NCBI GenBank assembly: GCA_903837025.1
Contig: CAILTC010000101.1
Coordinates: 1 to 13,658, forward strand
DNA: 13,658 bases
Source: an uncultured Bacteroidota bacterium
GTDB taxonomy: Bacteria; Bacteroidota; Bacteroidia; Flavobacteriales; Flavobacteriaceae
Reading direction: 5' to 3'
Shown: in pieces, positions 10,434 to 13,497 of the stretch
How positions within the stretch are numbered: the first letter of the stretch is position 1
Layout: the number at the start of each line of letters is the position of its first letter
Program-made: the position numbers and the translations under genes
Notes under the pieces: generated by a model
What the model saw: only the letters and a program-made list of their open reading frames with translations
Database searches by the model: none
What the model was told of the DNA's origin: nothing

Positions 10434-11654
10434 ATGAACTATCAAGAAACAACAAACTGGTTATTTAATCAACTCCCGATGTACCATTTACAAGGTGCTT
10501 CGGCTTATAAAAAGGATTTAACTAATGTTCAATTATTGGTCAATCATCTCGAAAACCCACAGAAGAAGCTCCAATGCATTCATGTAGCGGGAACAAATGG
10601 CAAAGGTTCTACCTCGCACATGTTGGCATCGATACTTCAAGAATCGGGCTACAAAGTTGGCTTATATACATCACCACATTTAATAGATTTTAGAGAGCGA
10701 ATCAAAATTAACGGAATAGAAATTCCCGAGGATTTTGTCTGCAATTTCATCAATAAAAACAAAGTTTTTTTCGAAGCCAATGACATGAGTTTTTTTGAAA
10801 TGACTGTTGGATTGGCTTTCGATTATTTTGCCAAAGAAAATGTAGACATCGCTATAATCGAAGTGGGAATGGGCGGAAGATTAGATGCCACAAACATTAT
10901 CACGCCAATGATTTCGGTTATTACGAATATCGCTTTGGATCACACTCAATTTCTTGGAAACACAGTCGAAGCCATTGCTTTTGAAAAAGCAGGAATCATC
11001 AAACCAAAAATACCCGTTGTAATTGGCGAATATACCTCCGAAACAAAACCTGTTTTTCTGGCTAAAGCCAAAGAAAACGATTCCGAAATTTACTTTGCTT
11101 CCGATTTGATTACAGCAGATTATCCCTCTGATTTAATTGGCGATTACCAAATACACAACAAAAAAACGGTTATCGAAACTGTAACGATAGTAAACGCACA
11201 GCAGCAATTTGAAGTTTCGGAAGCCCAAATTAAAAATGGTTTATTGAATGTTGTGAAAAACACCGGCCTCCTAGGAAGATGGCAACAACTGGGTGAATCG
11301 CCGAAAATTATCTGTGATACAGCCCATAACAAAAACGGCTTGGAAATTGTGATGAAACAAATTAAAAAACAAAAATTTGATGCTTTACATATCGTTTTGG
11401 GTGTGGTAAACGACAAAGATTTGGCTGAAATTTTACCTTTATTCCCCAAAGAGGCCATTTATTATTTCTGCAAACCCAATATTCCTCGTGGTTTAGATGC
11501 TCGAATTTTAAAAGAAAAAGCGGCTGATTTCGGATTAATAGGCGAAGTATATAATTCTGTTTCAGAATCTTATACGAAATCTTTGCAAAACGCTGCAAAA
11601 TCCGATATGATATACATTGGCGGAAGCACCTTTGTTGTTGCAGAAATTTTATAA
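10434..11654 (+). CDS. folC: Folylpolyglutamate synthase / dihydrofolate synthase
   Basis: A 406-residue Mur-ligase-fold enzyme of normal FolC length. The ATP-binding loop is HVAGTNGKGSTS (50-61), followed by GLYTSPHLIDFRERI (76-90), the central EVGMGGRLDATNII with the metal-binding acidic and glycine residues, LDHTQFLG, and DTAHNKNG in the C-terminal domain. It adds glutamate to dihydropteroate to make dihydrofolate and extends the polyglutamate tail of folates in the cytoplasm. The start MNYQETTNWLFNQLPMYHLQG matches the family N-terminus. It lies alone on +, divergent from exbB and directly upstream of the tRNA gene promoter; no strong terminator is visible in the short gap after its stop. 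Confidence 0.96.
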   Translation: MNYQETTNWLFNQLPMYHLQGASAYKKDLTNVQLLVNHLENPQKKLQCIHVAGTNGKGSTSHMLASILQESGYKVGLYTSPHLIDFRERIKINGIEIPEDFVCNFINKNKVFFEANDMSFFEMTVGLAFDYFAKENVDIAIIEVGMGGRLDATNIITPMISVITNIALDHTQFLGNTVEAIAFEKAGIIKPKIPVVIGEYTSETKPVFLAKAKENDSEIYFASDLITADYPSDLIGDYQIHNKKTVIETVTIVNAQQQFEVSEAQIKNGLLNVVKNTGLLGRWQQLGESPKIICDTAHNKNGLEIVMKQIKKQKFDALHIVLGVVNDKDLAEILPLFPKEAIYYFCKPNIPRGLDARILKEKAADFGLIGEVYNSVSESYTKSLQNAAKSDMIYIGGSTFVVAEIL

Positions 11655-11735: not shown

Positions 11736-11813
11736 GGGCGATTAGCTCAGCTGGTTCAGAGCACCTCGTTTACACCGAGGGGGTCGGGGGTTCGAACCCC
11801 TCATCGCCCACCA
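11736..11813 (+). tRNA. tRNA-Val (anticodon UAC)
   Basis: A full cloverleaf: acceptor gggcgat/atcgccc (11736-11742 with 11803-11809), D stem gctc/gagc, anticodon stem cctcg/cgagg (11764-11768 with 11776-11780) with loop TTTACAC and anticodon TAC at 11771-11773, T stem ggggg/cccTc with one G-T pair and T loop TTCGAAC, discriminator A at 11810 and an encoded CCA at 11811-11813. It reads GUA and other valine codons. It has its own promoter and a strong terminator immediately after the CCA. Its 3' half (from 11770) is also read on the other strand as the C-terminus of the recombinase, which marks it as the likely target of the neighbouring integrated element. Confidence 0.97.
11770..11813. other. 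Candidate attachment-site half in the tRNA-Val 3' end
   Basis: The recombinase frame extends 44 bases into the tRNA and stops there, as expected if an element inserted at the tRNA 3' end and rebuilt it. The matching copy of the tRNA 3' segment at the other end of the element would lie beyond the window, so the exact crossover point is unknown. The terminator at 11815-11853 may also belong to the duplicated identity block. Confidence 0.4.
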
Positions 11814-13326
11814 CAAGGGACAAAGAAGAAATAATCTTCTTTGTCCCTTTTTTATTTCTGTCTATTTCCCTGTTAATCAGATACATTAATTGAACAGCTT
11901 CGTTAATTCTGGTGGTTCGAAATCCAGTTCCGTTAAATGTCAGATTTTCGGGATAAATTGAACCAATTAAATCCCTACATTCTGCGAATGTCCCACCTTC
12001 ATAGCCTATACTAAGCCTTAACAGATTATCTATTCCCTCATTCAACAACCCTTCAATATCTTCTTTTTCATTACTGATTCCTGATAATTTAGCTTCAAGT
12101 TTAGTAACCATACTTCCATAATCAGATTTCATTTCTCTATAATCCGAAGAATCAATTTGATTTGTTACAACTAATTCTCTTGCTTTAGAAAGCCTATTCT
12201 CATAATCTTTTATCTGAGCTAGTAGTTGTCGTTTTTCATCTTGTATTCCTTTAGTTTGTTCTTTATAGGCTTCTGCTATCAGTGCAGTATAAAGCTTTTT
12301 ATATTCTTGTCTTGGTAAGTACTTTTGGAGTTCATTTACAAATAGTTCATTTACTGATTCTGCCCTGAAACGATGCGCACAACCACCAAAACAATGATAA
12401 TAGGCATAATACCTATTACGTCCTTTCGATTTGCTTCCGGAAAGAATCTTTGCACATATCGGACATATTAGAAAACCACGAAGCGGAAGTTCTTCAATAG
12501 TTTCGACTTTTGGTCGTGATGTTTTTCCACGTCCATCAAGTACATCCTGCACTGTATAGTATAATGCTTCAGAAATTATAGCTTCGTGTTGTCCTCTAAC
12601 AAAAAAACTTTCTTCGTCTTTATATTTAGGAACGAATATCTTCCCACAGTATAAAGGATTACGCACTGCGAGCCAAAAACTGTGCATTCCTGTCTTAATA
12701 CCTTTCTTTTTTGCTAGACGGTGTATATCTTCTGTACTAAATATTCCTTTAGATAATTCTTGAAAAGCCCATCGCATAATGGATGCTTCAGGCTCTTTAA
12801 GGGCAATATATTTACTTCCGTCTTCCTTTGATCTGTTTGCATATCCAACAGGAGCTTGACTTACATAACGACCTTCTTTTTTAGCTCTACGCATACCATG
12901 AAATACATTTAATGCTCTCCGATCGTTTTCGACTTCAGGTGCGGCAAGATAGAAGGCAAGCATCATCTTGTTTTCTGGAATAGAAAGATCAAGGGGTTGT
13001 TCTATAGCTTGAGGTTCAACACCTAGCTTTCGAAGCAAATTTATCATTTGGTAAGCATCACCTGCATTACGACTGAACCTATCCCATTTGGTAAATAGAA
13101 CCAAATCCGTTTTATTTTTATGTTTCTTAAGATTAACCAGCAATTTTTTCCATTGCGGTCTAATAAAAGTTTTCGCCGAATGGTCTTCATAAATCACATC
13201 CCGTATTCCAATAGAATTGATTTCACAATATTTTCTCAGCACTTCCTCCTGATTTCTCTGGGAATAGCCTTTATCCGCTTGCTCATCTGTGCTCACGCGT
13301 ACGTATAAGTCTGTTATGTTTTTCAT
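11770..13326 (-). CDS. Large serine recombinase (integrase) ending inside tRNA-Val
   Basis: A 518-residue site-specific recombinase. The N-terminal resolvase domain (about 3-150) has the nucleophile Ser12 in YVRVSTDEQ with Arg10, and the conserved DRFSR (82-86). A recombinase domain (about 155-265) follows, then a zinc ribbon with Cys288, Cys291, Cys312 and Cys316, and a coiled coil (about 353-425). It should catalyse integration and excision of the surrounding element through a Ser-DNA bond. The last 14 residues (505-518, ending GFEPPTPSV) are translated from the antisense of the tRNA-Val 3' half, and residues about 492-504 from its terminator hairpin; the TAA stop is made by bases of the anticodon loop (11770-11772). 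The ATG overlaps the stop of the 56-residue gene upstream (ATGA). No lesion in catalytic motifs is seen, so it is probably active. Confidence 0.93.
   Translation of the reverse strand: MKNITDLYVRVSTDEQADKGYSQRNQEEVLRKYCEINSIGIRDVIYEDHSAKTFIRPQWKKLLVNLKKHKNKTDLVLFTKWDRFSRNAGDAYQMINLLRKLGVEPQAIEQPLDLSIPENKMMLAFYLAAPEVENDRRALNVFHGMRRAKKEGRYVSQAPVGYANRSKEDGSKYIALKEPEASIMRWAFQELSKGIFSTEDIHRLAKKKGIKTGMHSFWLAVRNPLYCGKIFVPKYKDEESFFVRGQHEAIISEALYYTVQDVLDGRGKTSRPKVETIEELPLRGFLICPICAKILSGSKSKGRNRYYAYYHCFGGCAHRFRAESVNELFVNELQKYLPRQEYKKLYTALIAEAYKEQTKGIQDEKRQLLAQIKDYENRLSKARELVVTNQIDSSDYREMKSDYGSMVTKLEAKLSGISNEKEDIEGLLNEGIDNLLRLSIGYEGGTFAECRDLIGSIYPENLTFNGTGFRTTRINEAVQLMYLINREIDRNKKGTKKIISSLSLVVGDEGFEPPTPSV
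11815..11853 (+). terminator. Rho-independent terminator of tRNA-Val
   Basis: A perfect 15-bp stem (aagggacaaagaaga at 11815-11829 with 11835-11849), loop aataa, followed by a run of six T (11848-11853). It begins two bases after the encoded CCA. It lies wholly within the recombinase coding sequence on the other strand and has no T run in that direction, so it should stop only the tRNA transcript. Confidence 0.92.
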
Positions 13327-13493
13327 TCTCTCTTTCTTAAATATTTAGCTACTGTATTATTTGCCAATTTCCTCAAAAATCCTAAGATATTCTTGGCTTG
13401 TTCGAGCGTTAAATCCAGTCCTTCTGTCTTTAACATTTCCAAAGCTTTCTCTGGAGTGATTCTTCTTTTTTCATTCTCTTCTTCATTTTTCAT
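13323..13493 (-). CDS. Small 56-residue protein coupled to the recombinase
   Basis: An ATG at 13493-13491 opens a 56-residue frame starting MKNEEENEKRRITPEKALEM and ending AKYLRKRE. The N-terminus is highly charged; the rest, TPEKALEMLKTEGLDLTLEQAKNILGFLRKLANN, reads as two or three amphipathic helices. It has no membrane span, cysteine or enzyme motif. It is preceded by a strong Shine-Dalgarno site (AAGGAGG, 6-base spacing), and its TGA overlaps the recombinase ATG as ATGA, so the two are co-translated. I do not recognise a named family, though similar short proteins beside recombinases in Bacteroidetes seem familiar. A role in controlling the recombinase or setting its direction is possible but inferred from position only. 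The gene is short enough to be missed by routine calling. Confidence 0.75.
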   Translation of the reverse strand: MKNEEENEKRRITPEKALEMLKTEGLDLTLEQAKNILGFLRKLANNTVAKYLRKRE

Positions 13494-13497
13494 CACG

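Follow-up and report, generated by a model that had tools for sequence, protein, structure and literature searches.

The window, i.e., the whole stretch of 13,658 nucleotides that was analyzed, contains a recombinase ORF on the minus strand, whose 3′ end runs antisense through a terminator-like hairpin into a tRNA-Val(TAC) gene (Table 1). Pfam assigned a Resolvase domain to residues 7-154 (PF00239, 82.9 bits) and a Recombinase domain to residues 180-266 (PF07508, 39 bits); the zinc ribbon at residues 281-333 (PF13408) reached 24.1 bits, just below the cut-off of 25.3. Including this sub-cut-off zinc ribbon, the ORF has the domain set of large serine integrases, and its domains are those of a serine recombinase, not of the tyrosine recombinases to which the SSV-type integrases belong. 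Residue S12 is invariant across 31 aligned homologues and is presumably, by analogy, the catalytic serine of the N-terminal motif. The protein is thus a large serine recombinase, the predicted integrase of a tRNA-targeting mobile element, with a predicted recombination activity.

TABLE 1. Positions of the features in the window.
Feature	Position	Strand	Basis or remark
folC, chromosomal flank, used for finding empty tRNA-Val sites	10434..11654	+	
tRNA-Val(TAC), attachment gene; its antisense gives tail and stop	11736-11813	+	ARAGORN
Host-coded tail GDEGFEPPTPSV and TAA stop, antisense of tRNA-Val bases 33-71 (canonical)	11770..11808	-	Host origin assumed from core position in relatives
Core GTGGG (putative att overlap)	11807..11811	-	Mapped in Met and Arg relatives; Val-type left end starts GTGGAC
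Element-carried part of the ORF, to the valine codon at the core	11809..13326	-	Assumed for the window element from core position in relatives
Terminator-like hairpin of the tRNA, element-borne, coded inside the recombinase ORF on the other strand	11815..11849	+	15 pairs, covariation, not at empty sites
Recombinase ORF, integrated state, 518 aa	13326..11770	-	ORF and Pfam
57-aa ORF, overlaps recombinase start	13323..13496	-	Candidate cofactor or candidate directionality factor

The translated protein ends in KGTKKIISSLSLV-VGDEGFEPPTPSV. ARAGORN placed the anticodon at 11771-11773, and the TAA stop codon corresponds to 11770-11772 of the plus strand, i.e., to T33, T34 and A35 of tRNA-Val in canonical numbering. 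An earlier note on this DNA had described a recombinase frame which passes through the antisense of terminator and tRNA and stops on anticodon-loop bases, and this was confirmed by the ORF, the tRNA call and the hairpin. It had also derived the C-terminal 27 or so residues from this antisense sequence, which is right for the coding. Past the probable crossover there are just 12 residues (GDEGFEPPTPSV) and the stop, which would be of host origin, and the terminator-coded part is the element's. A small ORF similar to the 57-aa ORF was found upstream of the recombinase in 67 of 78 scanned loci (loose pattern ..ITPEKAxxML..LTLEQA..FLRKLAN..). The 57-aa ORF itself gave weak sub-threshold matches only against Pfam and PHROG.

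Homologous loci and the element-borne hairpin

The comparison was extended to 80 homologous loci from named genomes, the best 80 of 318. Since an intact tRNA lies at the recombinase 3′ end in 68 of these 80 loci and the ORF reads into it in 66, all in one frame, the read-through is not due to chance. The 68 loci consist of 62 found by script (tRNA end within 3 nt of the valine codon) and six Arg(acg) loci added by eye (L038, L055, L061, L071, L076, L081), each of which the script had listed with a tRNA-Arg among its leftovers. Eleven anticodons are represented, the targets being Arg(acg) (23 loci), Pro (22, four anticodons), Met (11), Leu (5), Val (3), Arg(tcg) (3) and Gln (1). Twelve loci lack an intact tRNA: L083 ends at a tmRNA (read by eye), L084 in a masked stretch and L023 at a contig end, L069 is a junction described below, and tRNA fragments are found instead at L009, L013, L017, L020, L028, L036, L045 and L056. 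Among the 62 scripted loci, 38 have their stop codon within the RNA gene and 24 have it past that gene, and the tail following the valine in the integrated state comprises 10 to 129 residues. These tails vary with the tRNA that was hit, a point which the earlier note had proposed to check. Of 3974 matches, 120 proteins were listed, and the tails of 110 of these contain a loose GFEP-type motif.

Some loci deviate from this pattern. In L083, L142 and L144 the frame enters, by sequence, an apparent tmRNA 3′ end rather than a tRNA. At L038 and L055 the ORF stops before the tRNA in another frame; there, as in P0035, the usual frame is left at an A-run before the hairpin (run length 5 to 9), leading to an early stop, for which slippage or a sequencing error is possible. 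Two near-identical elements (G107:C1:4217242-4218081 and G108:C6:374742-376211) contain, directly upstream of the intact recombinase, a second copy interrupted by in-frame stops. Distant serine recombinases were also found about 100 bp from folC in G002:C48 (L140), G043:C34 and G046:C2 (41%, 26% and a partial match of 22%), which suggests repeated use of the tRNA-Val site, the tRNA itself being seen only in L140.

The hairpin of the window is followed by a T run on the tRNA strand. Its sequence GGGACAAAGAAGA occurs without mismatch at only three places in the genome of the window, all adjoining tRNAs, i.e., at the window locus, at a second recombinase fragment beside a tRNA-Arg(TCG) and at a second tRNA-Val at a contig end. 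The fragment (G000 C430, L005, 7307-7807) is a recombinase C-terminus which, read by eye, is joined directly to a sugar-kinase-like frame and represents either a decayed element or a misassembly. The second tRNA-Val(TAC) (G000 C476, L004, 1-113) has an identical hairpin, within which the contig ends, and may carry a second element of the same kind.

Empty sites were collected from 30 folC-tRNA-Val loci; after removal of the window locus, of two loci in which no tRNA was called and of two lying at contig ends, 25 relatives were readable past the tRNA. The window hairpin is absent from all 25 within the inspected 70 nt past the tRNA, and therefore it belongs to the element. At these sites L095, L112 and L118 have a GGACAAAT hairpin, and the rest have other sequences. 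At least 4 T within 8 nt after the best stem, as in a Rho-independent terminator, were found in 57 of 64 loci, so that termination is predicted. In a set of 31 hairpins, 10 of 15 pairs were changed on both sides, with 56 double-sided changes (cells) vs. at most 10 when the partner was slid. The positions were 92% paired; the 31 hairpins were hand-picked from the long-stemmed ones, which favors pairing, so that the covariation outweighs this value. The last element-borne codons thus seem to double as a putative replacement for the native terminator of the tRNA.

Crossover core and left ends of related elements

In Flavobacterium cutihirudinis (G103) and F. hibisci (G104), 112,441 aligned positions upstream of the recombinase are 99.99% identical, which in two different species implies a recent movement of the element. 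At the left end of this tRNA-Arg element attR reads ..GAGTAGTGACGTTTAG.. and attL reads ..GAGAAGTGACCTCGAC.., and common to both is AGTGAC only. Four Met-type elements have GTAGC at both attL and the nearest left end, the shared stretches being 5, 5, 7 and 8 bp long. In these mapped Met and Arg relatives the core, with a length of 5-6 bp, is the antisense of the last acceptor-stem bases and lies at the tRNA 3′ terminus. Outside G103/G104, left end and recombinase were paired by proximity, and the left end taken for G072 immediately follows a different, distant recombinase. The earlier note had considered a crossover inside the tRNA or the terminator; the mapped relatives point to the tRNA 3′ terminus and speak against the terminator or a position deep in the tRNA. 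The second copy of the tRNA 3′ segment which it had asked for did not turn up as a long duplicate in the mapped relatives, and this does not refute the reading, because a serine integrase is expected to share a short core only. Likewise, no second attR-like tRNA copy was detected within 10 kb of the homologues, where complete tandem tRNAs (L016, L035, L048) and a 15-nt tRNA match (L027, 1945-1959) occur.

Two motifs flanking the core are consistent with this position. On the element side of 78 loci, a GGGAC-like motif was found at a distance of 10 nt in 42 and of 7 nt in nine, and was missing in 27; of 43 left ends, 26 have it at 11 nt and three elsewhere, and 14 lack it. This spacing would put the crossover centre inside the core. 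A TTCGAA-like, zinc-ribbon-like motif is found in the tRNA halves at 15 or 16 in 66 of 78 loci (18-19 in ten, none in two) and in the left ends, where the pattern was written slightly wider, at 20 or 21 in 37 of 43 (none in six). It therefore lies 5 bp further from the core in the left ends than in the tRNAs of these relatives, matching the 5-bp displacement that PMC3783163 gives for the zinc-ribbon motif when attB and attP of serine integrases are compared. For the window, half-site symmetry would place the crossover dinucleotide at 11808-11809 of the plus strand (tRNA 71-72).

Several routes to further ends were discarded. The murF region is not syntenic in the genome of the window and gave no access to attR there. 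Tandem tRNA-Met pairs were rejected as split sites, as each locus of the element-bearing clade has its own upstream region. A search for the empty site of the G103 left flank in 80 relatives gave a full match only to G103 itself and matches of 28-53 bp to nine others, and the ends of Pro-type elements from G109-G111 and G107/G108 could not be placed. The SAAADM tails at L013, L017 and L020, considered as attP, belong to a repeat unit in which a 27-nt 3′ fragment of tRNA-Met precedes an ORF that we take, from its motif, to be GIY-YIG-like. This unit was also seen in L218 (575, 935, 1295) and L212 (791); two such fragments and one complete tRNA-Met are spaced exactly 360 bp apart in L218. It is a tiny tRNA-end repeat unit that may be mobile.

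The other end of the elements starts with the same core, and in relatives the recombinase frame encodes there the peptide V[AT]LTxQF[ST]NHFxxDLKKLxx and a stop, an alternative tail of 17-27, mostly 21-25 residues. For the tRNA-Arg element of F. cutihirudinis and F. hibisci (112 kb), the predicted circular junction reads body-GTGAC-TFSSQFTNHFMNDLKKLAYFQVNL followed by a stop. To avoid selection by coding, left ends were sought by DNA patterns over nt 0-32 only, which had been derived from left ends first found with peptides, and coding was tested from nt 33. The Met-type search gave 24 sites in 11 of 150 genomes, all of which were read, and the Arg-type search 50 sites in 33 of 299 genomes, of which 30 were read; the reversed controls gave 0 in both cases. 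Over nt 33-59 the recombinase frame is open in 21 of 24 Met-type sites vs. 1 and 0 in the other frames, and in 30 of 30 Arg-type sites vs. 1 and 11. Peptide identity amounts to 0.482 vs. 0.300 (sd 0.062) in column permutations for the Met-type and to 0.880 vs. 0.646 for the Arg-type, with 0/2000 permutations as high in either. Pairwise differences of the Arg-type by codon position are 311/86/786 over nt 33-54 vs. 1210/1211/1258 past the stop, and those of the Met-type are modest in bias (738/551/798). The lack of stops alone is a weak signal, as 3.75% and 169/2000 permutations have equally few. In a wider set of 43 left ends, partly seeded with peptides, the frame is open in 40 vs. 2 and 9. 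The first ~28 nt show no codon-position bias (311/337/315), are half-site-like and have a motif in common with the tRNA T-loop.

From these values the excised-form tail is very likely under selection at the protein level in the relatives, with the sites being related by descent and thus not independent events. Some of the conservation may have been inherited by relics, since many left ends come from genomes or arrays in which no recombinase was matched to them; G006, for example, has three left-end sites and no recombinase. Left ends are also stacked 1-8 kb apart at one tRNA region at L246 and L247 (G105), at G141:C34 (L284, L290, L294, L296) and at L165 (G076), which resembles a cassette-like accretion, some of these genomes being without a matched recombinase.

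In addition, natural junctions were searched for upstream of 52 left-end sites (two of 54 were dropped by script filters). An in-frame upstream ORF of at least 100 codons exists at two of the 52, both coding for serine recombinases: L324 comprises the last 354 codons of a homologue, whose full match has one stop, and L283 is a distant serine recombinase of G072 (Pfam) with an open ORF fused to the left end. A stem of 8 or more pairs lies within 60 nt before 30 of the 52 sites, compared to 57 of 500 random 60-mers. Furthermore, open recombinase ORFs run into a left end at L069 (544 aa) and at L137, whose tail is only loosely similar and lacks the DLKK part, and decayed recombinases are present at the same kind of junction in the G104 left flank and at L247. 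These fusions look like an element inserted between an older element and the tRNA (accretion), which recreates attP. Two protein-database searches with excised-form tails gave no match, but the second did not return the tail of its own query either, so that this result has little weight; in plasmid and phage records every match was below 60% identity, and none of five IMG/VR loci was recognizably the attP form, two of them running out near the junction.

For the element of the window, the contig ends 332 bp past the recombinase start, and no left end was found in its MAG (89% complete, 665 contigs). The only known source of a Val-type left end is G100, the genome of L006, an 85% identical homologue; this left end starts GTGGACCCCTTGATACAAAATTCGAACC.. 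and reads V-DPLIQNSNLLLKDLKLLSEVSEV followed by a stop, on another contig. The excised tail of the window element is thus a prediction, and core and conserved tail were demonstrated in the relatives, from which the same architecture can be assumed here.

Proposed exchange of the C-terminus and competing explanations

In the proposed mechanism, the recombinase would be the integrase of a tRNA-targeting element, and its gene would extend across the attachment site (attP) of this element. In the excised circle the last 17-27 residues would be encoded at the far end of the element and joined in frame to the body through the short core. Integration at the tRNA 3′ terminus would cut the gene at the core. 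The body would stay at one end and its own C-terminal codons would move to the other, which in one mapped element is 112 kb distant; a replacement tail and stop would be read from the antisense of the host tRNA. The last element-borne codons would form, on the other strand, a terminator-like hairpin which replaces the native one of the tRNA. Because the crossover maps to the core at the tRNA 3′ terminus, the host would supply everything after one valine (GDEGFEPPTPSV in the window). We regard this anatomy as very probable. In the relatives attP appears to lie inside the integrase coding sequence, and different C-termini of the free and the integrated form are predicted from the two ends of six element copies. 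The statements of the earlier note that the integrated state supplies the end of the protein and that excision would change it are thereby supported, the latter by the other tail encoded at the left ends of relatives. That a gene spanning attP exchanges its C-terminus for tRNA-coded residues upon integration is, taken as a whole, probably the best explanation of the data.

A regulatory role of this exchange is proposed tentatively. The enzyme may differ in activity, direction preference or stability between the integrated and the excised state. Possibly, the integrase senses its own integration state via its C-terminus: the conserved excised tail would set integration competence or block excision, and the tRNA-coded replacement would switch direction or stability. 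Such a directionality control within one gene would work with any tRNA, as any tail serves once the conserved one is gone. An effect of the tail on direction is plausible, because fusion of a directionality factor (RDF) to serine integrases changes their direction (PMC5737554). As to the built-in difference between integrated and circular form suggested by the earlier note, it is the excised form that bears the biological signal, its tail being conserved as protein in relatives; the tRNA-coded tail seems to be simply a chance contribution of the host.

It could also be that the exchange is real and has no regulatory meaning: the conserved tail would be the C-terminus of the ancestor, which the circle uses or tolerates, and the tail coded by the tRNA would be neutral. 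We consider this possible, with a probability somewhat below even. It would agree with integrated tails which follow whichever tRNA is hit over such a range of lengths, and with an AlphaFold2 model of L069 built with 30 homologues (mean pLDDT 70.7, pTM 0.34), in which nearly all of residues 492-544, i.e., the hairpin-coded part and the tail, have a pLDDT <50, as have 82-87, 110-155 and 268-276. In the alignment of this model only L069 itself carries the excised-form tail, so that the low pLDDT says little about the tail. However, tail codons at an end distant from the gene are maintained by selection on the protein, so they must be of some use to the excised form. The same selection bears on the idea that left ends are conserved merely as DNA, i.e., as a half-site of the integrase with the open frame as a by-product. 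This would fit their first ~28 nt, but beyond nt 33 the Arg-type variation is mostly in third positions and frame 0 alone is open in 30 of 30 sites; moreover, according to PMC3783163, the contacts of a serine integrase should cover ~50 bp of attP, or ~25 bp in each half. It is disfavored and improbable.

Two further explanations concern the end of the ORF and the crossover. If translation or transcription slipped at the A-run before the hairpin, the protein would end there and the annotated end would not be real. The early stops of L038, L055 and P0035 and the A-runs of 5 to 9 are in line with this, yet the ORF enters the tRNA in one and the same frame in 66 of 80 loci, and this frame is the one selected at the left end, which makes slippage improbable as well. 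If, as is the case for many tyrosine integrases, the crossover lay in the T-arm or the anticodon and the 3′ segment of the tRNA were duplicated, this would account for the tRNA fragments followed by foreign DNA beside the eight fragment-bearing loci listed above. Nevertheless, attL and left end share only 5-6 bp in G103/G104, G065 and G072, which refutes it for the G103/G104 element, and the 27-nt tRNA-Met fragments at L013, L017 and L020 match the separate GIY-YIG-like repeat unit; this explanation is hardly credible.

Comparison with known integration systems

If the exchange of the C-terminus upon integration is true, these elements represent a bacterial, serine-type counterpart of self-disrupting integrases, common among the Bacteroidota loci found, in which the enzyme is kept in both states. 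One stretch of DNA would be reused as protein code, att half-site and tRNA terminator. The arrangement would account for the GFEPPTP-type tails among the listed proteins and offers a testable route to how a serine integrase might choose its direction. For anyone mining integrases as tools, it also matters that sequences obtained from integrated elements may carry a wrong C-terminus.

Older cases of tyrosine integrases with attP at the 3′ end of int may exist. The archaeal suicidal (SSV-type) integrases resemble the present case, as their attachment site lies inside the integrase gene and integration separates the body from the C-terminal codons. PMC8371274 describes them as tyrosine recombinases whose split parts are inactive and regards self-disruption of a recombinase as exclusive to the Archaea; here, in contrast, a bacterial serine recombinase would lose only its tail and gain a new one from the host tRNA. 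The integration-dependent immunity of mycobacteriophage BPs is alike in that attP lies in a gene, the repressor gene, and free and integrated forms code for different C-termini, the viral form bearing an ssrA-like degradation tag; the BPs integrase also has a C-terminal proteolysis signal (PMC4557955). In BPs the repressor changes, whereas here the integrase itself would change, and none of the 52 tails with visible stop (of 54) ends in AA as in an ssrA-like tag, judged by the last residues; L069 ends in TIAA.

The large serine integrases of A118/LI, Bxb1 and phiC31 agree with the present one in their domains and in the 5-bp zinc-ribbon shift between attP and attB (PMC3783163). Unlike in these, the target here is the 3′ terminus of a tRNA gene, one half-site overlaps a terminator-like hairpin coded in the integrase gene and this gene would span attP. 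Compared to the engineered integrase-RDF fusions, which contain a whole RDF, the present tail is natural, has ~17-27 residues and is putative in its action. A search of the open-licence PMC literature gave no description of a bacterial serine integrase gene spanning attP at tRNAs. The nearest precedents are the archaeal suicidal integrases and the integration-dependent repressors of mycobacteriophage BPs.
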